A program made the translations under genes and the position numbers. A DNA stretch of 64,000 nt from Vibrio tritonius (GTDB lineage Bacteria > Pseudomonadota > Gammaproteobacteria > Enterobacterales > Vibrionaceae). The DNA lies in contig NZ_AP014635.1 in assembly GCF_001547935.1 (NCBI RefSeq), positions 992,001 through 1,056,000 of the forward strand, given 5' to 3'. Of the stretch, positions 47,513-60,522 are shown piece after piece. Every line of letters begins with the position of its first letter. Position 1 is the first letter of the stretch. Below the pieces are notes generated by a model. That model ran no database searches and was not told the DNA's origin. It worked only from the letters and a program-made list of their open reading frames with translations.

Positions 47513-47651
47513 GTGAACTGAACAAATCGTCTATAGTGTAAGCACTTAACACCAATTTTTTGAATTTTATTGGTAACAGGGTTGCATTAGAGTAGGGGAT
47601 GTTTAATAATCTCCGCACTCTTTGGTGACACGAAAACACTAAAGTGATCTA

Positions 47652-47757
47652 TGGAGGCTCTGGTCCTCCCGCAACACTAGTTTGTGAACCTGGTCAGGCC
47701 CGGAAGGGAGCAGCCACAGCAAATGACGTGTGTGCCGGGATGTGGCTGGGGCTTCCA
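47652..47757 (+). ncRNA. ffs: 4.5S RNA of the signal recognition particle
   Basis: The core CAGGYCCGGAAGGGAGCAGCC (about 47695-47715) and CGTGTGCCGGGATGTGGC (47728-47746) are the invariant SRP Alu-less domain IV, binding Ffh. The ends tggaggct... and ...agcttcca-type pair to close the long hairpin. It closely resembles the E. coli ffs sequence. Its 3' end (47744-47760) is repeated at 56867-56883, so it is the integration site of the following island. Confidence 0.97.
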
Positions 47758-47760
47758 CCC
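47744..47760 (+). other. attL: ffs 3'-end core repeat
   Basis: GGCTGGGGCTTCCACCC at the end of ffs recurs exactly at 56867-56883. The integrase gene begins 85 bp to the right. The pair marks the ends of the island and leaves ffs intact, the usual pattern for tyrosine-integrase insertion into an RNA gene 3' end. Confidence 0.88.
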
Positions 47761-47844
47761 TTTTGTCTCTTTCCTGAGAAAAATCAATCCCTTACATTTC
47801 AGTTGATTATGTTTGTTTGCGCAGGTACTGACCTCAGGTACTAA

Positions 47845-49906
47845 AATGCGCTATTTATCACAATTAAAAAATGGCTCTTGGCAGTTTAGATTTCAGATTC
47901 CGGCGCAGTTTCGCGAACTACTGGATCATAAATGCGAATATAAGCGAAATTTCGGGTTTATTGATAAAAGCTCTGCTAGATTGCTTGCGTTAGAACATGA
48001 AATAGAGATTCGCAAACGCATGAGTGCCGTCGTCTACAACAGACAAACTTCAAACTTCGATCAGACATTTGTCGATGACATCATTTCTACTAAAGGGAAT
48101 GAAGTTAAGGCATGTATTCTTATGTGCATCGATGCATTTAAGAAAGATGTTCGTTTGAAACAAGCACTAAGATTTTCAGTAATTGCTGCCCAAAGCGAAC
48201 CTTCTATCTCGCCTTCCGGTTGTCTAATTGATGTAGCAAGTGGCGGTGCGCTGAGACAGTTAAGATCGATACACCCCAGAGAATTATCAGCGCAAGATCG
48301 GACGCAGGCATATTTAGATACAATTGATTTCGATTCAAAGGCGAAGAGTAGTACCGAATATGACCTACTTGATCAACAGCTCCGAATGATTCATTTGATT
48401 GCTATAAAAGCAAGAATGGCGATAGAACTAGAGGAATTTGAATTAGCTTATGACTTAAGTCAGTTGCTTGGCTATGGCTCTCTTGACGAGACTAAATGCA
48501 AAAAATATTTATTGACTAATGTTCAGTCGTTAAAGACAACTCAGCCTTTAGAGCCTTTAGAGCCTTTAGAGCCTTTAGAGCCTTTAGAGCCTTTAGAGCC
48601 TAAATTCTGGAAAGCTGGTAATCAAGACAATACGGTATCTATAACACCTAAAATTGAACGTCTGATTCCAAGTAATAGTAATGTTGAGACACCAGACAAA
48701 CCCTCATATAAGTGTATAAATGGCTGGCTGGAAGAATATTCAGAATTAAAGTATGGCTTAAAGGCAATCAAAAATAGAATAGATAGAGAACTGCTTATAG
48801 AAGATCGTCATATCGATGCTCAGGTGCGAAAAGCTAGAATTGTTCATCAGCTAATAGGTAAGAAGAACATGTATGATATCACGAGAAGTGATGCAACTCA
48901 GTGCTTGATGACCTTATTCGATTTTCCCAAGGATCCAAAGAACAACCCAATATATGGTGACTTGTTCAGAAATTCTGATGAGTCAGAGTGGATTACTATA
49001 AATCAGCAGCTCAAATTAGAGACAATAATGAAGAAAACAGCCGCTAGGTATATAGAAGCTGCTTCTACAGTGTACAAACAAGCTATTCGATACGATAAAA
49101 ATTTCACTTACAATCCTTTTGAAGGGATATCTTCAGAAATTGGAAAGGATGATGATGAAATCGATGATAAATTCCCTCTAAGTCAGAATGATTTGAGAGT
49201 CATATTTTCAGATCCTATCTTTACTGAGCATAAGTTTTCGTTAAATCATATAACCAAGCAGCTATTAACTTATCAGTATTGGTTACCTATTTGCAGTTTA
49301 TTGACAGGAGGGCGACCTAATGAACTGGCACAGTCTCGTTGTGGGGATATACGTAGTGAGAAGGGGATAGTCTATTGGGATATCAATAAAGATAATATCA
49401 ATAAAAATAATACCAATACCAATACCAATAAACGGCTCAAGAATAAATCGGCAAAAAGGAAAGTGCCGATTCATCCAAAATTAATTGAACTCGGATTTCT
49501 TGAGTTTGTTAAGGGTAGACCAAAGCACGAATTAATTTTTAATGACCTCAACTATATGGGGAAAGATGGCTACTTTGGTAAAGTTGGAGAATGGTTTAAA
49601 CGACATTTTGCAAAGCCTAACAACTTTAAACAACAGAAAAAGTCATACTACAGCTTTAGACATACCTTCGCGGATTTCTATAAACAACAAGATAATATAG
49701 CTCCTCATCTTTCGGGGGCTCTTATGGGGCATAAAGATCCTTCCATAACCTATGGTGTTTATGGTCATCAACTTCCCTTAGAGAAGTTGAAAAAACTTAT
49801 TGATATACTTGATTTTGATGACGTCTTGAAAGGTGTTAAGCCTTTTTATCAAAGAGTTAAGTGTGATTCTTCTAGAGCTGATAACGATTGGCAAATTGCA
49901 GAATAG
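47845..49906 (+). CDS. Tyrosine recombinase (integrase) with PLE repeat linker
   Basis: This protein of about 687 residues starts MRYLSQLKNGSWQFRFQIP, a typical N-terminal segment of this integrase class. The catalytic domain has Arg in LTGGRPNELAQSRCGDI (near 490), Lys in KRKVPIHPKL, the SFRHTFADF box, and GHKDPSITYGVYGH with the nucleophile Tyr (near 640). The frame is open from 47813, but that stretch covers the arm-site repeat, so 47845 is preferred. A linker with the tripeptide P-L-E repeated six times (48545-48598) separates the two halves. It catalyses excision and insertion at ffs. Confidence 0.92.
48545..48598 (+). repeat. 9-bp minisatellite (six copies) inside the integrase gene
   Basis: CCTTTAGAG is repeated six times exactly, encoding Pro-Leu-Glu each time. 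The repeat is in frame, so copy-number change would not disrupt the protein. Confidence 0.95.
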
Positions 49907-49928
49907 CTATAAAATTGATATGATGTTT

Positions 49929-50098
49929 ATGCTCTTTAGCTTGTGGCTCAAATTTTAGCCTAGTCGGGCGATTAGCCAGACTCAAACTTATTGAACGGGT
50001 TTTTGGGTGCGAAAGCACATAAAGCTTTACGCCCCGCTCTCGTTCCTCGTTTGGGGCGTAAAGCTTTATGCACTTTCGCGTCCTCTAGTAAAGAGCTT
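49929..50098 (+). ncRNA. Retron msr-msd non-coding RNA
   Basis: It lies directly upstream of the retron reverse transcriptase. The a1/a2 pair gctcttta/taaagagc (49931-49938 and 50089-50096) closes the RNA. The branch-point context TTTAGC sits at 49935-49940, giving a likely priming G at 49939. Two small msr hairpins follow (49945-49960 and 49963-49981). The msd is a long near-perfect hairpin, arms 50009-50035 and 50053-50079, with a 17-base loop. The layout is that of retrons making branched multicopy single-stranded DNA. End points are estimates. Confidence 0.88.
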
Positions 50099-50104
50099 CC
50101 TTTA

Positions 50105-50126
50105 ATGCCCTCAACTATGAGGGCAT
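50105..50126 (+). other. Short perfect hairpin between retron RNA and RT gene
   Basis: The stem atgccctca/tgagggcat has a 4-base loop but no T-run. It could set the 3' end of the msr-msd RNA or attenuate transcription into the RT gene. Confidence 0.5.
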
Positions 50127-50144
50127 ACATTTTAGAGCTGTTAT

Positions 50145-51173
50145 ATGACTAAAATTGCCAAGCAACTTCTCAGTTCACCTTTTATACATTCATATGCTTA
50201 TAAAGAATTGGATGAACTGATGGATAATGTGACACAAAAGGACATTGATTCGTTTGTTGAGCTCACTGTTGATGATGCAATCATTAACGGACCAAAAATG
50301 TACAAGGTTTATGCTATCCCCAAGCGTAATGGTGGTCGAAGAATTATTGCACACCCATCACAGCCTTTAAAAGCTGTACAAAGAGATCTAATAGAGATTC
50401 TAAAGAGTCAGTTACCTATACATGATGCTGCATTTGCATATCAACAAGGGAAAAGTATAAAAGGCAATGCTGAAGTTCATCGGTTTAATAAGTTCTTTTT
50501 GAAGATGGACTTATCAAACTTCTTCAACAGTATTGATGTAGATTTATTTTATAATCATCTAGATTTGAATAGCGTTAACATTGATATTGAAGATAAAAGC
50601 ACAATAAAAAATATAATCTTTTGGCGTCCTCAAAAGAATGAGACGGGTGAGTTAAGGTTAAGTGTAGGTGCTCCATCATCCCCATTAATATCAAACTTCA
50701 TTATGTACAAGTTTGATTCAATAATATCAGAAGTCTGTGCATCATTTAAAATAAAATATACTAGATATGCTGATGATTTGTTTTTTTCTACAACTGTAAA
50801 AGGAGTTTTATTTAAAATTCCTGATATAGTTGAGTTTATTTTAAAGTCTAAGTATGACGATGTTTTAACAATAAATAAATCAAAGACTAGCTTTTCATCG
50901 AAAGCTCATAATAGGAATATTACAGGTATTACTATTACTAATTCAAACGAGCTTTCATTGGGTAGAAATAGGAAAAGATATATATCTGCATTAGTTCATA
51001 AATATCGTATTGGATTATTGGATGATAATGCTACTGAAAGTTTGCAGGGGCTTCTGGCATTTGCAAAAAATATAGAACCTAAATTCCTAATGAGACTTAA
51101 AAATAAGTATTCGAACGATGTTATTGAATCTATTATAAGTGGTAGGTGGAAAAATCATGAATCAGAAGAATGA
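50145..51173 (+). CDS. Retron reverse transcriptase
   Basis: The 342-residue RT has the catalytic YADD at about residues 208-211 (YTRYADDLFFS), a retron-specific NAxxH (NAEVH, 108-112), and the ITG variant of the VTG motif in NRNITGITITN. The finger blocks (YKVYAIPKRNGGRRIIAHPSQPLKAVQ, LKMDLSNFFNSI, VGAPSSPLISN) are complete. It extends the msr-msd RNA from an internal 2'-OH. The gene overlaps the ATPase gene by 17 bp. Confidence 0.96.
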   Translation: MTKIAKQLLSSPFIHSYAYKELDELMDNVTQKDIDSFVELTVDDAIINGPKMYKVYAIPKRNGGRRIIAHPSQPLKAVQRDLIEILKSQLPIHDAAFAYQQGKSIKGNAEVHRFNKFFLKMDLSNFFNSIDVDLFYNHLDLNSVNIDIEDKSTIKNIIFWRPQKNETGELRLSVGAPSSPLISNFIMYKFDSIISEVCASFKIKYTRYADDLFFSTTVKGVLFKIPDIVEFILKSKYDDVLTINKSKTSFSSKAHNRNITGITITNSNELSLGRNRKRYISALVHKYRIGLLDDNATESLQGLLAFAKNIEPKFLMRLKNKYSNDVIESIISGRWKNHESEE

Positions 51174-52812
51174 TAGAAAGACGCGAACAACCACTGACAA
51201 AGTTGAGTATGCATCTTTAGGTCACTTAGGTTACCTATATGAGGTTGCTGAATGGTATAAGACTGGACGCTATTCTTGTGTGAAAGATGAAGCAAAGTCT
51301 GAAGAATACCTAAATGCAGCCCGGATTGGTCTTGAATCAGAAAAGATTTATTTTGATGAGTTAGAACTTATTAATTTTAAAGGGATAACCTCAACGCAAA
51401 CTCGAATAAATTTAGACCCAAATTTAAATGTTTTTGTCGGTGTTAATGGAAGTGGCAAAACTTCCATTATTGACTCGATTGTAAAAGTTACCTCATGGCT
51501 TGTCTATGGTATCAGGAATAACGCCAATGGGAAGTCGATAGAAATTAACGAAATTAACAATCATCCAAACAATAAAGATTGCTTTATTAAAGCTAAGCTG
51601 TGTATTGGTGATAAAAGCGATTTTAATATTGAGTTGTTTAAAAGTAAAAATAAATCTACAAGGTTAAAAAGTGAGTTAGCTGAGTTTAAAAATATTTCAG
51701 AAGCTTATAGTTATTTTAATGATGTAGATTATGATAATTTTCCATTACCTCTATTCGCTCACTACTCTGTAAGCCGTGCTCTTGATATAAAAGATGAACA
51801 TGGGAAAAGGGATAGTGAAGAAATAGTATTTCAGAATAAGCTAGATGGCTATGCCAATTTCTCAGAGAGCAATCATAATTTCAAAAAATTATTAGAATGG
51901 TTAACACAACATGATCTTGTAAATAAAGAAGATGTTGTTAAGAAAACGGAGTTCACTGTAGTAACGGCTGAGTATAACACGACAAAAAAAATCTATGATT
52001 CTTTGACACAAGACCTTAAAGCTCATGCTGATGTCGGTAAGCCATTGGAAAAAAAACTTATAGAATTGAGGAAACAAATTGAACTTCTAATGCCAAGTCA
52101 AGACAACGATGATGATGAAGTTAGAGCTGTGAAAGATGCAATATATGCATTTATGGATATAAAAAACATAAGGGTGGAAGTAACAAAAGAAAGCATATCC
52201 ATTCTTATGGAAAAAAACAACATAACTATTTCAGCAATGGATTTATCTCAAGGAGAGAAAGCTCTATTTGCTCTTGTTAGTGACATAACTCGTAGATTGA
52301 TTCTGTTAAATCCAAACAAAGATTTTGATGCGCGTAATGGGTTCGGTATCGTGACTATTGATGAAATAGACCTGCATTTACATCCTAAATGGCAACAAGA
52401 TATTGTTCTACAGTTGACTAAGGTTTTTCCAAACATTCAATTTATCTTAACGACCCATAGTCCCCAAGTGATATCCACTATTCCTAATTATTGCGTTAAA
52501 GTTCTCAACAGCGACGATGATGGAAAATTGAGAATTTCAGAACCAGAGTTTTCTTTAGGCTCCGAATCTAAAATGATTTTGGAGGATATATTTCTTGTTG
52601 ATTCACGACCTAGCAATGTAGAGGAAGTTAAGAAGCTTGGGCGTTATAAAGAGTTAATACGGGCAGATAATTGGGATACTGAAGAAGCGGAACGCTTGGA
52701 GCTAGAACTTGCGAAATGGGCTGGAGAGCATGATCCAGTTATGAAGCAACTGAAAATGGATGTGAGATTACGTAAACGTCGTAGAGGAACTGCTTTTAAT
52801 GAAAAAAATTAA
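51157..52812 (+). CDS. Retron-associated PtuA-like ATPase
   Basis: This protein of about 551 residues has a short N-terminal helical segment (LGHLGYLYEVAEWYKTGRY) and an SMC/ABC-like ATPase: Walker A in GVNGSGKTSI (near residue 94), signature LSQGEKALF (near 362), Walker B in TIDEIDLHLHP (near 400) and H-loop THSPQV. The architecture RT-PtuA-PtuB is that of type I-A retrons such as Ec78/Eco7, which trigger growth arrest when phage is sensed. By precedent, RT/msDNA restrains the effector pair. ATG 51157 has GGTGGA upstream; the frame is open from 51139. Confidence 0.94.
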   Translation: MNQKNDRKTRTTTDKVEYASLGHLGYLYEVAEWYKTGRYSCVKDEAKSEEYLNAARIGLESEKIYFDELELINFKGITSTQTRINLDPNLNVFVGVNGSGKTSIIDSIVKVTSWLVYGIRNNANGKSIEINEINNHPNNKDCFIKAKLCIGDKSDFNIELFKSKNKSTRLKSELAEFKNISEAYSYFNDVDYDNFPLPLFAHYSVSRALDIKDEHGKRDSEEIVFQNKLDGYANFSESNHNFKKLLEWLTQHDLVNKEDVVKKTEFTVVTAEYNTTKKIYDSLTQDLKAHADVGKPLEKKLIELRKQIELLMPSQDNDDDEVRAVKDAIYAFMDIKNIRVEVTKESISILMEKNNITISAMDLSQGEKALFALVSDITRRLILLNPNKDFDARNGFGIVTIDEIDLHLHPKWQQDIVLQLTKVFPNIQFILTTHSPQVISTIPNYCVKVLNSDDDGKLRISEPEFSLGSESKMILEDIFLVDSRPSNVEEVKKLGRYKELIRADNWDTEEAERLELELAKWAGEHDPVMKQLKMDVRLRKRRRGTAFNEKN

Positions 52813-53575
52813 TAAGGGAGCAGAACCTCAGACTCTTACTGACTATCGATCCATGAATCCTGACGACGATTGGAAAAAAGGATTTAAGAAGAATGCAGGT
52901 CAGCAGCCGAATCAGGACGTTAGAGAGTATTTAGTAAAAGAACAAAAGGGACTTTGTGTCTACTGTGAAATTGATCTGAAGGATGGTGGAGGGCAAGCCC
53001 TTCACGATTTTAGAGTGGAACATTTTTATCCGGAAAACCCATCTCAGACTGATAAAAGGAATGATGGTGTCAATTATGCTCTTCTTTGGAATAATATGTT
53101 TGGTTGTTGTACTGGTGGGAATGCTCAATCAGTAACTGAAAGTGAATTTCGTTATACTAACCCTGATTTTAGTTGTGATGTTAATAAAGGTAATCATGAT
53201 TGGACTGATGAACTTTTAAATCCGCTCACAGATATACCACCTTTCCCCCCAATTTTTGATTTTAATGAGGACGGTGAAGTTTCTGTCTCTATTAATTGCC
53301 CTGAAGAAATCAAACATAAGTCTGAGAAGACTATTGAGCTATTAGGGTTAGACTCTGAAAGACTTCGTCGATTTCGTAAGGCTATTATTGAAGATCTCAA
53401 TCAAAAATTACAAGAATACGATGACGACAACTTAGATGACGCGATGATTGAATTAGCTTCTACTTATTTGCTGGAGGACGACCAAGGGTTATACGCATCA
53501 TTTTTTTCCACAATAAGATGGTATTTAGCAGATGCAGCAGAAAAAGTTCTAGAAGATAATAATTATAATGGTTAA
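52799..53575 (+). CDS. Retron-associated PtuB-like HNH nuclease
   Basis: The 258-residue HNH-family protein has zinc/catalytic segments CVYCE, RVEHFYPE and LLWNNMFGCCTGG, in the order and spacing of PtuB. It overlaps the ATPase gene by 14 bp. In studied type I-A retrons this pair is the toxic effector; precedent suggests tRNA or DNA cleavage after phage infection. It is the last gene of the retron operon. Confidence 0.93.
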   Translation: MKKINKGAEPQTLTDYRSMNPDDDWKKGFKKNAGQQPNQDVREYLVKEQKGLCVYCEIDLKDGGGQALHDFRVEHFYPENPSQTDKRNDGVNYALLWNNMFGCCTGGNAQSVTESEFRYTNPDFSCDVNKGNHDWTDELLNPLTDIPPFPPIFDFNEDGEVSVSINCPEEIKHKSEKTIELLGLDSERLRRFRKAIIEDLNQKLQEYDDDNLDDAMIELASTYLLEDDQGLYASFFSTIRWYLADAAEKVLEDNNYNG

Positions 53576-53586
53576 TCTTTTAGTAT

Positions 53587-54432
53587 CTATCTTGGTTGAT
53601 TTTTATTAATTATTTCTTTGAATTTTTCAAGTGTGCCATGTGCTTCATTTGAATATCCGGTTTTTGTCAATTTTTCGTATGTTTTATACATGCGACTGTA
53701 TTGTCTATTCACCTGCCTCAAGTCATTTTCTTCTTTAGCTTTTATCCATTTATCGACTTGATTCTGCAATTGTCGAATGAGCTTAAGCTCTTCCTTCGAT
53801 TGTTCTACTCGTGAATATTGCATCTTCCATTGTTCTAAACGCTTTGAGCGCCCAATTTCCAAAGGTGTATAGTCGTTTATTGAATAGTTTGTATGCTTAA
53901 GTACAGAAAGGGTAAATGCAGATTTTAATGCTCTTGTTGCTCCTTTCTTCTGTAACTGAGTTAGCACGCCTTTTCCAGCAAGGACTTTCGACACAATAAA
54001 ATGAACATGGTCACCAGTTCCCCTTGAATTGTTCTGATTCTGCTGATGTAGTACCGCACGAATGCCTTTTTTATAATTTTCATAATCTGATGAACTCAGG
54101 TTACAAACCTGAGCTAAAGCCTTAACACAATCAATAGTGATTGATTTCCATTGCTGAGGCGTCGGAGATATACCTTTGGGCAGAGTTATGCAATATTCAA
54201 CTGCGTATGAGGAGAGAGGGCGACCACCTCTTTTTTGTTTCTGTTGCTGATATAGTTTGTATTGTTCACCTAAAATTGCCATTCTGCGCGATGTTTCTGG
54301 TGAACCTATTAGTGAAATAATTTTTGTTTCTTTATGACTTGCATTTTTAGTCGAGACTAAATAACGTTCCCTCTTCATTATTCCGTTAGATCCATCTTTT
54401 ACTGCCTGTGTTATAACCGTCCAATTTTTCAT
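53587..54432 (-). CDS. Relaxase-like (MobA-type) protein
   Basis: The 281-residue protein carries GDHVHFIVSKVL, the HxH-containing motif of HUH relaxases, and an N-terminal VITQAVKDGSNGIMKRERYLVST segment. The last third is a charged coiled coil. It probably nicks an origin of transfer and lets the island be mobilized by a helper conjugative system; no type IV secretion genes are present. It is convergent with the retron operon. It is shorter than full MobA proteins, so a Rep-like role is an alternative. Confidence 0.7.
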   Translation of the reverse strand: MKNWTVITQAVKDGSNGIMKRERYLVSTKNASHKETKIISLIGSPETSRRMAILGEQYKLYQQQKQKRGGRPLSSYAVEYCITLPKGISPTPQQWKSITIDCVKALAQVCNLSSSDYENYKKGIRAVLHQQNQNNSRGTGDHVHFIVSKVLAGKGVLTQLQKKGATRALKSAFTLSVLKHTNYSINDYTPLEIGRSKRLEQWKMQYSRVEQSKEELKLIRQLQNQVDKWIKAKEENDLRQVNRQYSRMYKTYEKLTKTGYSNEAHGTLEKFKEIINKNQPR

Positions 54433-55029: not shown

Positions 55030-56652
55030 TTATGCAGTGTAGGTGGGAGCATATTTTGGATGTACTAGATACTTTCTTGTCGGTTGCTCAACGACTTTGA
55101 TATAACCAGAATCCAAAAGTGTCGATAAGGCTTCATCACGATCTTTTGCTGTTTTTAGGTTGCTCCATCCTTTCTGCGACAATTGGTGTTTAGTAAACTC
55201 CGGATAAAGGTCAGGCAATTTGCTCTCCAGTTTAACAGCTGATGATGTTTCTTGTGTTTGTAAACCTAAAGCGAATATCTTTTTTACATGTGTGTTTAGA
55301 TATTTAATCCACTTGAAACTAAGCAACAATGTTTCTTCTGATATATAAGGGCACGGTTTGAATTCTTTTTGATCTTTATATAAAATCGCATATGTTTCAG
55401 CCTCATTATAAATGTGAAATATCGATGCTAACTTTCCACATGTGGCAATTTGTTTCGTCAAGAATGGTTGTAAACTTTCAGGAGATTGTTCAATCTTATG
55501 AATAAATTTCCTATTCCATTCTTCCCACAAACGCTGTGCATTTGTATCAAACTTTAGTTTAATAGGTTCGAACGGCTGATGAATCTGTGCAATTGTTTCT
55601 ATCACAGAGTAAAGTCTCATATTAGAGTATGTATCTGGTAAAATATCCGTATACTCCATACCCTCTATATCAGGGAAAACGGAAAATTGCAAAAGCCGTT
55701 CCAGAAATCCATCGTCTTTTAGACCATGTAGTTTTTCCTTTACTATTGGGACAATAAGAGAGGGTTGGATACCTCCAAATATCTGTAATATAACACGATC
55801 AATTTCGACAATTTCGACATTTTCGCGCCCAATCCTTTCTTGGACATATGATGACTTGGATGCATTAAATGCTTCAAGGTAGAAAGATCTTTCATGCTCT
55901 CTTGCTTGTGAATTCATCGATGCTATAAAGCCAGATAATTCATCTCTCCAATTTAGAACGCCGCTTGGGTTTTCGGAAAGTCTTATTTGCATTGCCTCCA
56001 CTGTCCCATCATTTATATACACATTTCTGAGGTACGGTCTTTTAGGTTCGGTCAGACTAGCCAATTTTTTAATACATTCCATTTTCAACTCCGAATCTCC
56101 GATTTCATGAGCTTGTTCAGCTTCCGATTGAATTCGTTGATAATCTTTGTCGTACATCTTTTTTTCGAAGTTATATACCGTTTTAGTTTCTTTTCCTTCG
56201 ACTGAAAAAATTTCCGTCTGAATTTTTTGTAGCATGCCTAGCCCTAATGCAGCAGATGGAGTTTTCATCGATGAAGCAGGACCAATTAGCGCCCCCCACA
56301 AGACGATTGGTATTGACCAATCATCATTTTCTTTGGGGACTAACTCTACACTTCCTCCGCAAATCGTACTGATTACGATCAGTAAAGTCGTAGCAGTAAA
56401 GTCAGGTTTAGTATTGTTTAAACGTTCTGCATGATTGAAGACCGCATCTGCCATATAGCCCGGCAACATATCACGCGTAAGTTCTTGAGGTGAGGGTAGT
56501 CCAGTTGCAACAAGCTCTCTCGGATCTGACCATTTACCTTCATTTAAGGGTGGGGTAGCTGCATTGCCTGCATAACCTGCATGTTGGTCATTTAGTTTTT
56601 CTTTTGTGTTTTGCTCTAGGCTTAAAGTCCCTCGACTATCATTTTTTTTCAT
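55030..56652 (-). CDS. DUF3987 domain protein (YfjI-like)
   Basis: The 540-residue protein has a P-loop-like GPASSMKT (124-131) and the conserved LRLYSVIETI... and LSFKWIKYLN regions of DUF3987. Such proteins are common in phage-like islands and are sometimes linked to primase or RepA-type replication; a specific function is not established. It is the last gene before attR. Confidence 0.8.
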   Translation of the reverse strand: MKKNDSRGTLSLEQNTKEKLNDQHAGYAGNAATPPLNEGKWSDPRELVATGLPSPQELTRDMLPGYMADAVFNHAERLNNTKPDFTATTLLIVISTICGGSVELVPKENDDWSIPIVLWGALIGPASSMKTPSAALGLGMLQKIQTEIFSVEGKETKTVYNFEKKMYDKDYQRIQSEAEQAHEIGDSELKMECIKKLASLTEPKRPYLRNVYINDGTVEAMQIRLSENPSGVLNWRDELSGFIASMNSQAREHERSFYLEAFNASKSSYVQERIGRENVEIVEIDRVILQIFGGIQPSLIVPIVKEKLHGLKDDGFLERLLQFSVFPDIEGMEYTDILPDTYSNMRLYSVIETIAQIHQPFEPIKLKFDTNAQRLWEEWNRKFIHKIEQSPESLQPFLTKQIATCGKLASIFHIYNEAETYAILYKDQKEFKPCPYISEETLLLSFKWIKYLNTHVKKIFALGLQTQETSSAVKLESKLPDLYPEFTKHQLSQKGWSNLKTAKDRDEALSTLLDSGYIKVVEQPTRKYLVHPKYAPTYTA

Positions 56653-56866: not shown

Positions 56867-56883
56867 GGCTGGGGCTTCCACCC
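56867..56883 (+). other. attR: second copy of the ffs 3'-end core
   Basis: GGCTGGGGCTTCCACCC is an exact copy of 47744-47760. Only this tail of ffs is present here, with no upstream part of the gene. The Tn7-like terminus begins 7 bp further right. Confidence 0.87.
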
Positions 56884-57000
56884 ATTTCATGTCGCTGAAA
56901 GCATAAAGTGTCCAATTAAAAGCATAAGCTGTCCTTTTAAAACTCATAAAGTGTCCTAAACTTAATTTGGTTGTTTTATTACAACGTTAAGGGACAAGTT

Positions 57001-57624
57001 ATGTACGTTCGAAATCTCCGCAAACCATCTGCAACAAAAAATGTGTACAAGTTTGCGAGTTCTAAAAACCGAAGTGTCATTTTGTGTGAAAGTTCTTTAG
57101 AACGAGATTGTTGTTACCATCTCGAATACTCAAAGGACGTTATTTCATTCCAATCACAACCCGAAGGCTTCTATTATTCTTCAGGTAACAAACGCTGTCC
57201 CTATACTCCTGATTTTCTCGTCCGAAACCAAGATGGTTCAGAGTATTACCTTGAAGTAAAACCTCTTGCTAAAACCTTTTCTGAAGATTTCAAACGTTCC
57301 TTCGCTCTAAAGCGAATTGCAGCACAGCATCAAGGGAAACCACTGGTATTAGTCACAGATAAGCAGATACGTAATGGAGTGTATCTAGAAAACCTTAACT
57401 TAATACATCGATATAGTGGGCTAGTGGATTTCAGCTTGTCCTCAACAAAAATTGTTGAGGAGTTGAGTACTGCAGGAAGAATGTGTATTCGTTCGCTTGC
57501 GGATAACCTGAAACTATCGATTGGTGAAGTGATAGCAGTCGTCTTTCGTTTAGCTGGATTAGGCAGAGTTAATGTGCCTTTAGATTCTGCAATTAATGAG
57601 ATGTCTGTGATCTCGGTGAATTGA
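57001..57624 (+). CDS. tnsA: TnsA-like transposase endonuclease subunit
   Basis: This 207-residue single-domain TnsA, shorter than Tn7 TnsA (273 aa), is the size seen in the CRISPR-associated lineage. The restriction-endonuclease-fold active site is E34, D71 and E85-V-K87 (SSLERD, YTPDFLV, YYLEVKP). It cuts the 5' ends of the element during cut-and-paste. ATG 57001 has AAGGGA upstream; the frame is open from 56971, inside the terminal repeats. It is followed by tnsB one base after its stop codon. Confidence 0.92.
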   Translation: MYVRNLRKPSATKNVYKFASSKNRSVILCESSLERDCCYHLEYSKDVISFQSQPEGFYYSSGNKRCPYTPDFLVRNQDGSEYYLEVKPLAKTFSEDFKRSFALKRIAAQHQGKPLVLVTDKQIRNGVYLENLNLIHRYSGLVDFSLSSTKIVEELSTAGRMCIRSLADNLKLSIGEVIAVVFRLAGLGRVNVPLDSAINEMSVISVN

Positions 57625-57625
57625 A

Positions 57626-59539
57626 ATGGTCATGCCTTTTGATGATGAGTTTGAATCCATAACAGATGATACTCAGGCCGAATATGATGCATCTTCTGAG
57701 GCTAAGCTAGCTCGAAAACAATACCAACCACTTGATTCAGTTACTATTCATGAACGAGACCTGTCATCTTTTTCTGAAGAACAGAAAAATAAGGCATTGG
57801 AGCGATACAAACTTATTTCTGCTGTCGCTAAAGAGATATCCGGTGGTTGGACACCTAAAAATATTAACCCATTAATTGATAAATACAGTCCCAACTTATC
57901 GATCAAACGGCCAAGTTACAAATCAGTTATTCGTTGGTATAAATCCTTTTGTGAGAGCGATGGAAACATTGTGTGTTTAGTGGATCACAATCACTCAAAA
58001 GGAAATAGAACCAAACGAATTATTGATGACGAATCCTTTTTTGTTGAGGCCACTGAACGTTTTCTTGATGCAAAAAGACCCAACTATTCACAAGCGTATC
58101 AGTTTTACTGTGACAGAATTGAAATTGAAAACAGCAATATTATTTCCGGTCAAATATCCAAAGTTAGTTATCAGGCGTTTAAAGAAAGACTGAAAAAACT
58201 TCCTCCTTATGAAGTTGCATTAAAACGATTTGGTCAAAATTATGCGAACAAGCTTTTCAACTACTATCAATCATCAGTTCCGACCACGAGAATATTGGAA
58301 CGTGTAGAGCTAGACCATACGCCACTCGATTTAATCCTTCTTGATGATGACTTACTGATACCTTTAGGTCGAGCCTATTTGACGTTACTGGTCGATGTGT
58401 TTAGTGGCTGTATTATTGGTTTCCATCTTGGTTTCAATCCCCCTAGCTATGTCTCTGTTGCTAAAGCGATCATCCATTCAGTAAAAAGCAAAGACTATGT
58501 TCATGATTTGAATATTGAGCTCACTAATGACTGGTTATGCCACGGGAAAATGGAAACACTGGTTTTTGATAATGGAGCTGAGTTCTGGTCAAAAAGCGTA
58601 GATCAAGCCTGTATGGAAGCTGGAATACACGTTGAGTATTGTAAAGTGGGGCAACCGTGGGAAAAGCCTCGGGTTGAAAGGAAATTTTTAGAAATTATTC
58701 AGGGAATTGTTGGATGGGTTCCGGGAAAAACTTTTTCGAATATATTGGAAAAAGATCGGTATGACCCACAAAAAGACGCCGTAATGCGGTTTAGTAGTTT
58801 TGTTGAAGAGCTGCATCGTTGGATTATTGATGTTCATAATGCCTCACCTGATTCTCGGAATACGAAGATTCCCAATTACCATTGGAAAAAGAGTGAAGAA
58901 GCCTTGCCACCCGCAGCGCTCAGTGACCGAGATGAAAAGCAGTTTCGAATCATCATGGGGGTTATTCATGAAGGCGTTGTGACAACTAAAGGTATAAAAT
59001 ATAAGCACTTAATGTATGACAATGTGGCGTTAGAACAATATCGGAAGCAGTACCCACAAACAAAAGAGTCTCGTAAGAAAACAATAAAGATTGACCCCGA
59101 TGATCTGTCTAGCATATTCGTTTATCTGGAGGAAATCGGTGGATACACCGAAGTTCAATGCAAAAATGATCCTTTGGGATACACAAAGAAACTATCACTG
59201 AGTGAGCATGTTCGCATTACTAAAATACATCGTGATTTTATAAAAGGCCAAGTAGATGCTTTATCATTAGCGAAAGCTCGGCAAGCACTTCATGAACGTA
59301 TTAAAACGGAGCAAGAGCACCTTTCTTTAATGTCGGTTGAGAGCCGAGCGAAAAAAGCCAAACATGGTAAGAAAATGGCAGCTCTTTCAGGTATATCAAA
59401 TGAGCAACCTATGTCCATACAGAATGCTTTAGAAAACAAGAATAAGCAGTTAGATGACAATCTTGACGAGCCTACTCCTGTGGATAATCTCAAATCGCTC
59501 TGGAATAAACGCAAAGCGATGAAAAGGTCTAAAGAATGA
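57626..59539 (+). CDS. tnsB: TnsB-like DDE transposase
   Basis: The 637-residue DDE integrase-fold protein has catalytic Asp near 230 (VELDHTPLDLILLDD), Asp near 314 (LVFDNGAEFW) and Glu near 351 (PWEKPRVERKF). An N-terminal HTH region (about 45-130) precedes it and a C-terminal beta-barrel and Lys-rich tail follow, where partner contact is expected. It joins 3' ends to target DNA. It overlaps tnsC by 4 bp. Confidence 0.95.
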   Translation: MVMPFDDEFESITDDTQAEYDASSEAKLARKQYQPLDSVTIHERDLSSFSEEQKNKALERYKLISAVAKEISGGWTPKNINPLIDKYSPNLSIKRPSYKSVIRWYKSFCESDGNIVCLVDHNHSKGNRTKRIIDDESFFVEATERFLDAKRPNYSQAYQFYCDRIEIENSNIISGQISKVSYQAFKERLKKLPPYEVALKRFGQNYANKLFNYYQSSVPTTRILERVELDHTPLDLILLDDDLLIPLGRAYLTLLVDVFSGCIIGFHLGFNPPSYVSVAKAIIHSVKSKDYVHDLNIELTNDWLCHGKMETLVFDNGAEFWSKSVDQACMEAGIHVEYCKVGQPWEKPRVERKFLEIIQGIVGWVPGKTFSNILEKDRYDPQKDAVMRFSSFVEELHRWIIDVHNASPDSRNTKIPNYHWKKSEEALPPAALSDRDEKQFRIIMGVIHEGVVTTKGIKYKHLMYDNVALEQYRKQYPQTKESRKKTIKIDPDDLSSIFVYLEEIGGYTEVQCKNDPLGYTKKLSLSEHVRITKIHRDFIKGQVDALSLAKARQALHERIKTEQEHLSLMSVESRAKKAKHGKKMAALSGISNEQPMSIQNALENKNKQLDDNLDEPTPVDNLKSLWNKRKAMKRSKE

Positions 59540-60522
59540 ATCTATCTGCTAAACAAGAAATTGCTATTGATGAGTTACTAACTCAATACCACAATTCATT
59601 CGTTATATATCCAGATGTGCAACAGATATTCGATGGCCTTGATTGGATTGTACGTCGCAGTCAATTTGGCAATTTTACGCCATCGATGCTTATAACTGGT
59701 GGCACTGGGGCAGGTAAAACATCACTCATTAACTATTATCTAAAACACCATTTTAATGATAATGAAGTGTTGGTGACGCGTGTCAGACCGAGCTTTATCG
59801 AAACATTGATTTGGGCGATTGATAAGTTAGGTCTTCCTCATAATACCCGTTCGAAAGGTTCTGAAATTGGCTTACAGGATTATTTCATTAACAGTGTTAA
59901 AAAATCCAATCTTAAGCTCTTAGTTATCGAAGAAGCTCAAGAATTATTTGAGTGTGCATCTACCAAAGAAAGACAAAAAATTCGTGACCGGCTCAAAATG
60001 ATCAGTGATGAATGCCGGTTACCTATTGTGTTTATAGGAATTCCGACTGCCAAACTTATCTTGGAAGACTCTCAGTGGGATAGACGAATTATGGTCAAAA
60101 GAGAATTACCATATATTCGAATCACATCCGCATCATCAGTAGATGTATACATCGATTTACTTGAAGAACTCGAAAAGCAACTTCCAATTCCAGTTGAACC
60201 GGAACTTTCGGATATGGATACAGCGATGAGATTACTAGCAGCGACCAAAGGTATGCTTGGAGCTATTAAAGAGTTAGTCGGTTATGCATTAGAACTTGCA
60301 TTACTAGCAGGTAAATCAGCAGTGACCAATGAAGACTTTGTATTGGCATTCGAAACAATTAATGGCCCTGATGTTCTTAATCCCTTTACAACCAATATCG
60401 ATAACCTATTGATACCGCAAGTTATAGAGTACGAAGGATTTATCATTGACCCTGAAAGTGGGGAAATCAAATTTACTAAACAGCTATTTCAAGACATGCC
60501 GTTAGCAGCGCTATTAGGGTAA
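59536..60522 (+). CDS. tnsC: TnsC-like AAA+ regulator
   Basis: The 328-residue AAA+ ATPase has Walker A in GGTGAGKTS (55-62) and Walker B in LLVIEEAQEL (near 130). It is short, as in CRISPR-associated Tn7 elements, against 555 residues for Tn7 TnsC. It links target selectors to TnsAB and gives target immunity. It is the last of the tnsABC operon. Confidence 0.94.
   Translation: MNLSAKQEIAIDELLTQYHNSFVIYPDVQQIFDGLDWIVRRSQFGNFTPSMLITGGTGAGKTSLINYYLKHHFNDNEVLVTRVRPSFIETLIWAIDKLGLPHNTRSKGSEIGLQDYFINSVKKSNLKLLVIEEAQELFECASTKERQKIRDRLKMISDECRLPIVFIGIPTAKLILEDSQWDRRIMVKRELPYIRITSASSVDVYIDLLEELEKQLPIPVEPELSDMDTAMRLLAATKGMLGAIKELVGYALELALLAGKSAVTNEDFVLAFETINGPDVLNPFTTNIDNLLIPQVIEYEGFIIDPESGEIKFTKQLFQDMPLAALLG

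Follow-up and report, generated by a model that had tools for sequence, protein, structure and literature searches.

Two characterised type I-A retrons, Retron-Eco4 (Ec83; PDB 9e8z/9e90) and Retron-Eco7 (Ec78; PDB 9l7p/9kjx/9nnb), are the closest described systems to a locus of Vibrio tritonius that we analyse here, at positions 49931-53575 of a 64,000-nucleotide stretch of its genome (5.22 Mb in two contigs; contig NZ_AP014635.1, positions 992,001 to 1,056,000 of the forward strand; this whole stretch is called the window, and all coordinates refer to it). The locus is a retron of known type carried by a small mobile island, and it is a complete and intact type I-A retron that probably functions in abortive-infection defence. 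Retron-Eco4 likewise combines a reverse transcriptase (RT), the effectors PtuA and PtuB and a multicopy single-stranded DNA (msDNA) with a single hairpin, and Retron-Eco7 has the same gene order as the window. What is new here is the placement of the RT in a clade with an extended N-terminus, the nearness of PtuB to that of Ec83, and a terminator-like hairpin after the a2 repeat that was found by comparison.

According to the available part of PMC11555353, the PtuAB pair of Eco7 is toxic and causes loss of tRNA-Tyr, and msr-msd together with the RT neutralises it; the PtuAB pair of Eco4 is also toxic, and in the tRNA sequencing reported in that part no tRNA was lowered. The complexes of Eco4 and Eco7 are described as dissociating on infection in the accessible portions of PMC12887533 and PMC13158370. 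The first of these states that the complexes of Eco4 and another I-A retron dissociate and degrade single-stranded DNA or tRNA, and the second that the msDNA of Ec83 is degraded on phage stimulation, with cleavage of single-stranded DNA being named. A stand-alone Septu cuts the variable loop of tRNA-Tyr, and its immunity is lost when H75 or N91 of PtuB is changed (PMC13096335, in the text available).

Retron architecture and type

The retron is made up of the following features:
49931..49999, + strand: msr RNA (Rfam RF00170, 76.6 bits, cut-off 52)
49931..49938, + strand: a1 repeat, a perfect 8-bp complement of a2
49939, + strand: predicted branching G, next after a1, in a TTTAGC context
50000..50086, + strand: msd, its extent taken as the interval between the Rfam msr and the a2 motif
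50089..50096, + strand: a2 repeat, a perfect 8-bp complement of a1
50145..51173, + strand: retron RT, 342 aa, with an N-terminal extension of about 24 aa (RT_I-A, 434 bits; NF038233, 320 bits; trees)
51157..52812, + strand: PtuA, AAA/SMC-type ATPase effector, 551 aa (ATPase_I-A, 497 bits; NF041760, 490 bits)
52799..53575, + strand: PtuB, HNH endonuclease effector, 258 aa (NF041761, 178 bits; PtuB model, 263 bits)

All the parts of a type I-A retron are present: a non-coding RNA (ncRNA) with complementary a1 and a2, a predicted branching G, msr and hairpin msd, lying upstream of an RT of the I-A/St85 clade with YADD, NAxxH and [VI]TG motifs, and a PtuA-like ATPase with a PtuB-like HNH effector in the same operon. 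The three protein genes form one string of overlapping frames, with overlaps of 17 nt (RT/PtuA) and 14 nt (PtuA/PtuB), and every structural element that the initial annotation had named, these overlapping effector genes among them, was recovered. The best PADLOC models were RT_I-A (434 bits, the second-best RT model being RT_II-A at 370 bits), ATPase_I-A (497) and PtuB (263), with HNH_I-A at 182. The NCBIfam models for the St85-family RT (NF038233, 320 against a cut-off of 235) and the Ec78 PtuB (NF041761, 178 against 150) were exceeded; one score speaking against the assignment is that of the Ec78 PtuA model (NF041760), which at 490 bits falls about 10 below its cut-off of 500. Stand-alone Septu, that is PtuAB without RT and ncRNA, was ruled out by the presence of the RT and the msr. 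The locus is most likely a tripartite abortive-infection system, as predicted from these parts.

Across the whole 64 kb, two RNAs exceeded the Rfam cut-offs, namely the signal recognition particle (SRP) RNA gene ffs (RF00169, 47658-47754) and the retron msr. Under strict filters, a search for RF00170 in 369 genomes of the class returned the window's own copy as the sole match. The window RT found one relative only in the genome contigs searched with it, and none in IMG/VR.

Reverse transcriptase

The RT carries NAEVH at residue 108, YADD at 208 and ITG at 259, the three motifs initially read in it, and a tree check placed it, as proposed, among retron St85/type I-A RTs. The trees held 74 RTs (66 in-group and 8 outgroup rows), including 34 of the 120 best homologues out of 2229. 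The window RT falls in a clade of 24 rows (SH-aLRT, the Shimodaira-Hasegawa-like approximate likelihood ratio test, 99), all of which have at least 51 residues through the conserved Tyr53, compared with 28-33 in 39 of the 42 other in-group rows. The remaining three have 41 (L047), 44 (L105) and 52 (L070), the last value being inflated because that sequence was given from stop to stop (the annotated gene has 317 aa). When the extension columns and the outgroup were removed, a single branch still set the 24 RTs apart from the others (support 98, one state change) in a tree rebuilt by the 'quick' method with no bootstrap. The clade includes proteins named from Vibrio owensii, Serratia, Pantoea, Proteus, Enterobacter, Photobacterium, Aliivibrio and Shewanella, and the RT of L104, from a selC island of E. 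coli, also belongs to it.

The six closest RT sequences in the PDB (E below 1e-50) are 310-322 aa long and align only from window residue 44-51; the Eco4 chain, of 312 aa, aligns only from residue 51. The Eco7 RT is 48% identical to that of the window (compared with L103, which is Ec78 itself, its RT scoring 693 bits to Ec78 chain 9l7p); it belongs to another clade and lacks the extension. The locus adds an intact retron of the extended-RT clade, and the I-A RTs retrieved from the PDB by sequence do not have this extension. In the AlphaFold2 model, the extension forms helices 3-9 and 12-25, with a predicted local distance difference test (pLDDT) score of 91-96 over the block and 94.3 over the whole model. 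The top six PDB matches in a fold search were all Ec78/Eco7, Ec83 or 'retron IA' entries, the best being Eco7. We speculate that the two helices probably add a contact within the RT-msDNA-PtuAB complex.

The same extension is found in the selC-island retron of E. coli Eco_24-2013 (L104), whose RT, PtuA and PtuB are respectively 52%, 54% and 56% identical to those of the window, and in V. owensii (P0003 RT, 58%; P0124 PtuB, 64%). The L104 retron differs in adjoining tRNA-Sec, within a different island, and its ncRNA is identical to that of L067. Both of these extended-RT I-A retrons, of E. coli (L104) and Klebsiella aerogenes (L067), lie near tRNA-Sec (selC) with an integrase between; the L067 RT is annotated as two pieces. 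A whole I-A retron, with ncRNA, RT, ATPase and PtuB, is also carried by a filamentous vibriophage (PQ189325.1, L070). Another locus, L106, was considered as Ec83 itself and ruled out at 293 bits.

Effector proteins and proposed mechanism

PtuA carries GVNGSGKT at residue 95, LSQGEK at 363 and TTHS at 432. PtuB carries CVYC at 53 (a CxxC pair), RVEHF at 72-76 (with H75) and WNN at 97-99 (with N99), and H75, W97, N99 and C104 are invariant across 65 aligned PtuBs. When PtuB was searched against the PDB at E <= 0.001, Ec83 was the sole match. A profile of the 65 sequences gave 146 bits to Ec83, 64 to Septu, 57 to the 9n69 retron and 36-39 to Ec78. The PtuB model (pLDDT 96.4) had its best fold matches among Ec83, Septu, Ec78 and 'retron IA' entries, chains of Ec83 entries ranking first and second. 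The initial annotation had named Ec78/Eco7 as the known relatives, and for the effector this did not hold: PtuB is nearer to Ec83 than to Ec78 by sequence, with the fold search agreeing, which places the retron in an Eco4 (Ec83)-like subgroup. Ec83 was also the nearest PDB match of PtuA by sequence (209 bits; Ec78, 176).

Because PtuB is nearest to Ec83, an Eco4-like substrate is more likely than the tRNA-Tyr of Eco7, and we favour an Eco4-like effector action, as a lean from sequence at a PtuB identity of about 25-27% (Foldseek alignment). Several observations weigh against this reading. The RT scores higher to Ec78 (291 bits) than to Ec83 (269 bits), PtuA is nearly equal in its scores to the 9n69 retron (200 bits) and to Ec83, and identity to the Ec78 locus L103 is low, at 30% for PtuA and 24% for PtuB (216 aa in Eco7 versus 258 in the window). 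This low identity and the near-tie of PtuA mean that effector specificity is not safely transferable. An otherwise identical system with an Eco7-like effector, in which PtuAB would cleave tRNA-Tyr and translation would stop, is an unlikely but serious alternative: it has precedents in the depletion of tRNA-Tyr by Eco7 PtuAB and in the dependence of Septu on PtuB H75 and N91 for tRNA-Tyr cleavage, in the accessible parts of PMC11555353 and PMC13096335, and the window PtuB has H75 and the invariant N99. Set against it are the far greater nearness of PtuB to Ec83 than to Ec78 and the finding, in the same part of PMC11555353, that Eco4 PtuAB lowered no tRNA.

With the favoured Eco4-like action, and by analogy with these relatives, the ncRNA would be transcribed from a promoter just upstream, and the RT would prime on the 2'-OH of G49939 and reverse-transcribe the msd, giving an msDNA hairpin no longer than about 87 nt. 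The RT-msDNA would keep the PtuA-PtuB complex inactive until a phage function destroying or altering the msDNA released it, and the released PtuAB would then cleave nucleic acid, probably an Eco4-like substrate, so that growth would stop before phage release. On the same analogy, the retron probably has an anti-phage role.

Structure of the non-coding RNA

The window ncRNA was set beside other RF00170 loci, drawn from genomes of Vibrionaceae, from E. coli, from plasmids and a filamentous vibriophage, and from IMG/VR. Among the Vibrionaceae, 20 of 329 genomes match RF00170 at E <= 0.001 (own included), 16 of them over the cut-off; the IMG/VR loci are biased to close relatives because the retrieval pattern was built on the msr. 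There were 44 loci, with the window's (L038), and L004, L005 and L069, being the same places as L037, L036 and L033, were not entered. Two of the 41 entered were truncated by contig ends (L041, L100), and five more (L094, L098, L106, L109 and L104) repeated the sequence of another locus between a1 and the position just before a2. With each such sequence counted a single time, 34 distinct ncRNAs remained, the window included. No a2 was found in L107, so that terminator and a1/a2 counts have n = 33 and loop counts n = 34, with the window in both. L102 (a pattern match), L105 and L108 have no msr match at the gathering score.

The perfect 8-bp complementarity of 49931-49938 and 50089-50096 and the TTTAGC context around G49939 agree with what the sequence had first suggested. 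Full pairing of a1 and a2 (8 of 8 positions) occurs in 26 of the 33 distinct ncRNAs with an a2, and the first three positions show compensatory exchanges (G-C/A-T, C-G/T-A, T-A/C-G). Folding, which had been proposed as a check, bore out one part of the structure. The 216-nt ncRNA stretch has a folding energy of -89.1 kcal/mol (z = -8.1), a value reached by 0 of 200 shuffles, and the minimum-energy fold forms the msd hairpin. Against the proposed pairing, the same fold lacks the a1/a2 helix, 49931-49935 of a1 pairing with 50134-50138 instead, and the centroid fold leaves a1 and a2 unpaired. Pairing of a1 and a2 in the window rests on complementarity and on relatives.

The hairpin of the msd has the following parts:
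50009..50035, + strand: left arm of the msd stem, 27 nt (inverted repeat I1; fold)
50053..50079, + strand: right arm of the msd stem, 27 nt (inverted repeat I1)
50041..50048, + strand: motif CGTTCCTC in the apical loop (loop 50036-50052), recurring in 24 of 34 ncRNAs

The arms are 93% complementary around a loop of 17 nt, and the 27-bp stem with a single two-base internal mismatch, as first described, is visible in the fold. The further claim that the stem is unusually long and near-perfect did not survive comparison. By a wider script rule it has 30 pairs with 2 mismatches, which is long but not exceptional in a set with a median of 24 and a range of 8-33 pairs (34 distinct ncRNAs, window included), and 12 of the 34 have stems with no mismatch at all. 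Mismatch-free msDNA stems have already been published, as the available portions of PMC3335539 and PMC4569332 state.

The loop had been proposed as a variable sensor, a view at odds with the recurrence of CGTTCCTC in apical loops, including an exact copy in the Ec78 locus (L103). Within one mismatch, the motif occurs in 24 of the 34 distinct ncRNAs, 17 of them exact, compared with 4.9% of shuffled loops (shuffles in our scripts being single-base, not dinucleotide); it was picked after inspection of the data, several of the ncRNAs are near-copies, and 10 of the 34 loops, that of L104 among them, lack it. A hypervariable loop was rejected, and so was its reverse, a loop with greater overall conservation than the stem: the motif recurs, yet loops share a mean pairwise identity of 0.588, which does not exceed the values for the upper arms (0.609 and 0.615; 435 pairs among 30 ncRNAs, leaving out L045, L047, L049 and L052 with unclear hairpins). 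In pairs with an arm identity below 0.6, a biased subset (n = 170), the loop stood at 0.546 versus 0.497.

By effector, loops like CGTTCCTC are found in 18 of 23 retrons with PtuAB, 6 of 7 with an St85-type effector and 0 of 4 not assigned (among these L096, in which only the RT was found before the contig end). Being common to retrons with different effectors, the motif would suggest a role linked to the RT or to the msDNA itself, rather than to the effector. The St85-effector retrons (such as L107 and L002) share the Rfam msr family with the window and have neighbouring RTs; they differ in that a gene related to the annotated 'retron St85 family effector protein' of L107 precedes the RT, and they have no PtuAB match. 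The effector of retrons like L107 and L002 is of the NDT type, labelled 'type II-A'.

Transcription of the non-coding RNA

Two candidate signals flank the ncRNA:
49896..49924, + strand: putative ncRNA promoter, TTGCAG, 17 nt and TATGAT, ending 6 nt before a1 (read from sequence)
50105..50126, + strand: terminator-like hairpin of 9 bp, followed by a weak T-run (inverted repeat I5)

In 21 of the 34 distinct ncRNAs, the best promoter-like site has a spacer of 17 and lies 6-7 nt before a1. The position agrees across ncRNAs; many of the single-site scores are no better than those of shuffles. The window's own top-scoring site differs from 49896..49924, and a plain scan lists an overlapping site at 49888/49915. 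A promoter 5 bp upstream of msr-msd has already been described in this family (PMC3335539, in its available part).

After a2, 31 of 33 ncRNAs have a hairpin with a stem of 7 bp or more, three or more of its pairs being G-C, within 78 nt after the start of the a2 motif (5.7% of single-base shuffles). In 28 of 33, window included, such a hairpin has a tail beginning 0-3 nt past the stem in which four or more of six bases are T (1.4% of single-base shuffles). Distant loci have very different sequences in this hairpin, so that it is the pairing rather than the sequence that is kept. In the window, the tail is CATTTT, which is weak, and a canonical terminator was rejected there: a stricter scan does not list 50105..50126, which is counted by the looser rule only.

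These observations lead us to a tentative proposal, one that we regard as possible rather than probable. In RF00170 retrons, with either a PtuAB or an St85-type effector, the ncRNA may be its own transcription unit, with a promoter before a1 and an intrinsic terminator after a2, and the RT and toxin may be expressed by read-through only, so that antitoxin RNA would always be in excess; to these retrons the window would add an uncharacterised clade with two extra RT helices that probably touch PtuAB. A review describes retrons as one polycistronic cassette, unlike this reading, and among the open-access retron papers listed in our literature searches we found no description of a terminator between ncRNA and RT. 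It is equally possible that the hairpin merely protects the 3' end of the RNA. If it is a real terminator, it would be a built-in means to hold antitoxin RNA above toxin.

The same hairpin, standing between ncRNA and RT, together with a promoter that only weakly matches consensus, could suggest that the retron is a silent passenger, unexpressed and with genes intact by chance. This is improbable: the three reading frames and all the motifs listed above are intact, and an RT and a PtuB, each 96% identical, exist elsewhere.

Genomic context

The retron lies in a 9.1-kb island whose other features are:
47744..47760, + strand: attL, first copy of a 17-bp direct repeat (GGCTGGGGCTTCCACCC) spanning the 3' end of ffs (exact repeat by script)
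47840..49906, + strand: tyrosine recombinase, the island integrase (PHROG integrase families, best E 4.3e-23)
53587..54432, - strand: island backbone, 281-aa protein with an HVHF (HUH-like) motif (motif only)
55030..56652, - strand: island backbone, DUF3987 protein (PF13148, E 1.1e-52; phrog_3022, a weak DNA-primase match, E 5.3e-6)
56867..56883, + strand: attR, second copy of the 17-bp repeat (exact), with the end of a Tn7-like element next to it

The two copies are 9,123 bp apart, and no longer exact repeat of sequence from 47650-47860 turned up in the 104 kb searched. With an integrase beside ffs and each edge carrying this repeat from the 3' end of ffs, the island is integrated at ffs as initially annotated. 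Of that first interpretation, the ffs island and the type I-A PtuAB architecture stand, and the unusual stem, the variable loop and the nearest effector do not. The island holds the integrase, the retron, the 281-aa HVHF protein, a 116-aa open reading frame (ORF) and the DUF3987 protein. The integrase ORF, read from 47813, had no Pfam, PADLOC or NCBIfam match, and the HVHF protein had no family match in Pfam, PADLOC, NCBIfam or PHROG.

Of 329 Vibrionaceae genomes, 56 (own included) have a match to the integrase at E <= 1e-20, the best outside the window's own genome being 31% identical over nearly the full length, and relatives of the HVHF protein occur in 20 of 99 genomes, own included. Four relatives (L117-L120) have integrase matches at one end, then cargo, and the HVHF-protein gene at the other end; two more (L121, L122) have no match to the window integrase. 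PADLOC matched 6 of 10 chosen cargo proteins: one of three in L117 (type IIG), all three in L118 and both of two in L121 (type I restriction), and neither of two in L119. The mobile island around this extended-RT retron has relatives carrying other defence systems, and the HVHF/integrase islands are possibly a modular family of defence-carrying islands. The name strand-biased integrative elements was considered for the island and rejected, as the available part of PMC9345347 describes these without an HUH endonuclease and with four clustered core genes.

The cargo of these islands also bears on the idea that the msDNA has a physiological role in the control of protein abundance, defence being secondary, as in a published proposal for Salmonella St85 msDNA (PMC4569332, in its accessible part). 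We consider this very improbable for the window, where the retron is cargo of a mobile island with related islands that carry restriction systems, and where the effectors are a PtuAB pair, with toxic and anti-phage relatives in Eco7 and Eco4 according to the available text of PMC11555353.

Just after attR, TGTCGCTGAAAGCATAAAGTGTCCAATT matches the printed right end of a Tn7-like element at the SRP-RNA gene of V. cholerae DRAKES2103 (PMC6360697, in the part available). The Tn7-like element of the window starts directly past attR and was traced over 56884-60522, with TnsA at 56971-57624 and tnsB-like and tnsC-like ORFs next, TnsA alone being family-tested. Immediately behind ffs, two related genomes (L058 and L065) carry a similar Tn7-like end. 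Two elements thus use ffs in tandem, with the retron island between ffs and the Tn7-like element.

A closely related remnant of the integrase end (430 bp, 89%) stands at ffs in a genome of the same genus (G246; L110 1603-2014), with different genes behind it. The integrase gene of the window contains a tandem repeat at 48543-48607 (Pro-Leu-Glu repeated); another short one, rich in Asn/Thr, lies near 49395-49440. The translations also show a very large repetitive adhesin-like gene (L053 17202 through L054 16722), beside type I secretion-like genes, some 24 kb past attR.

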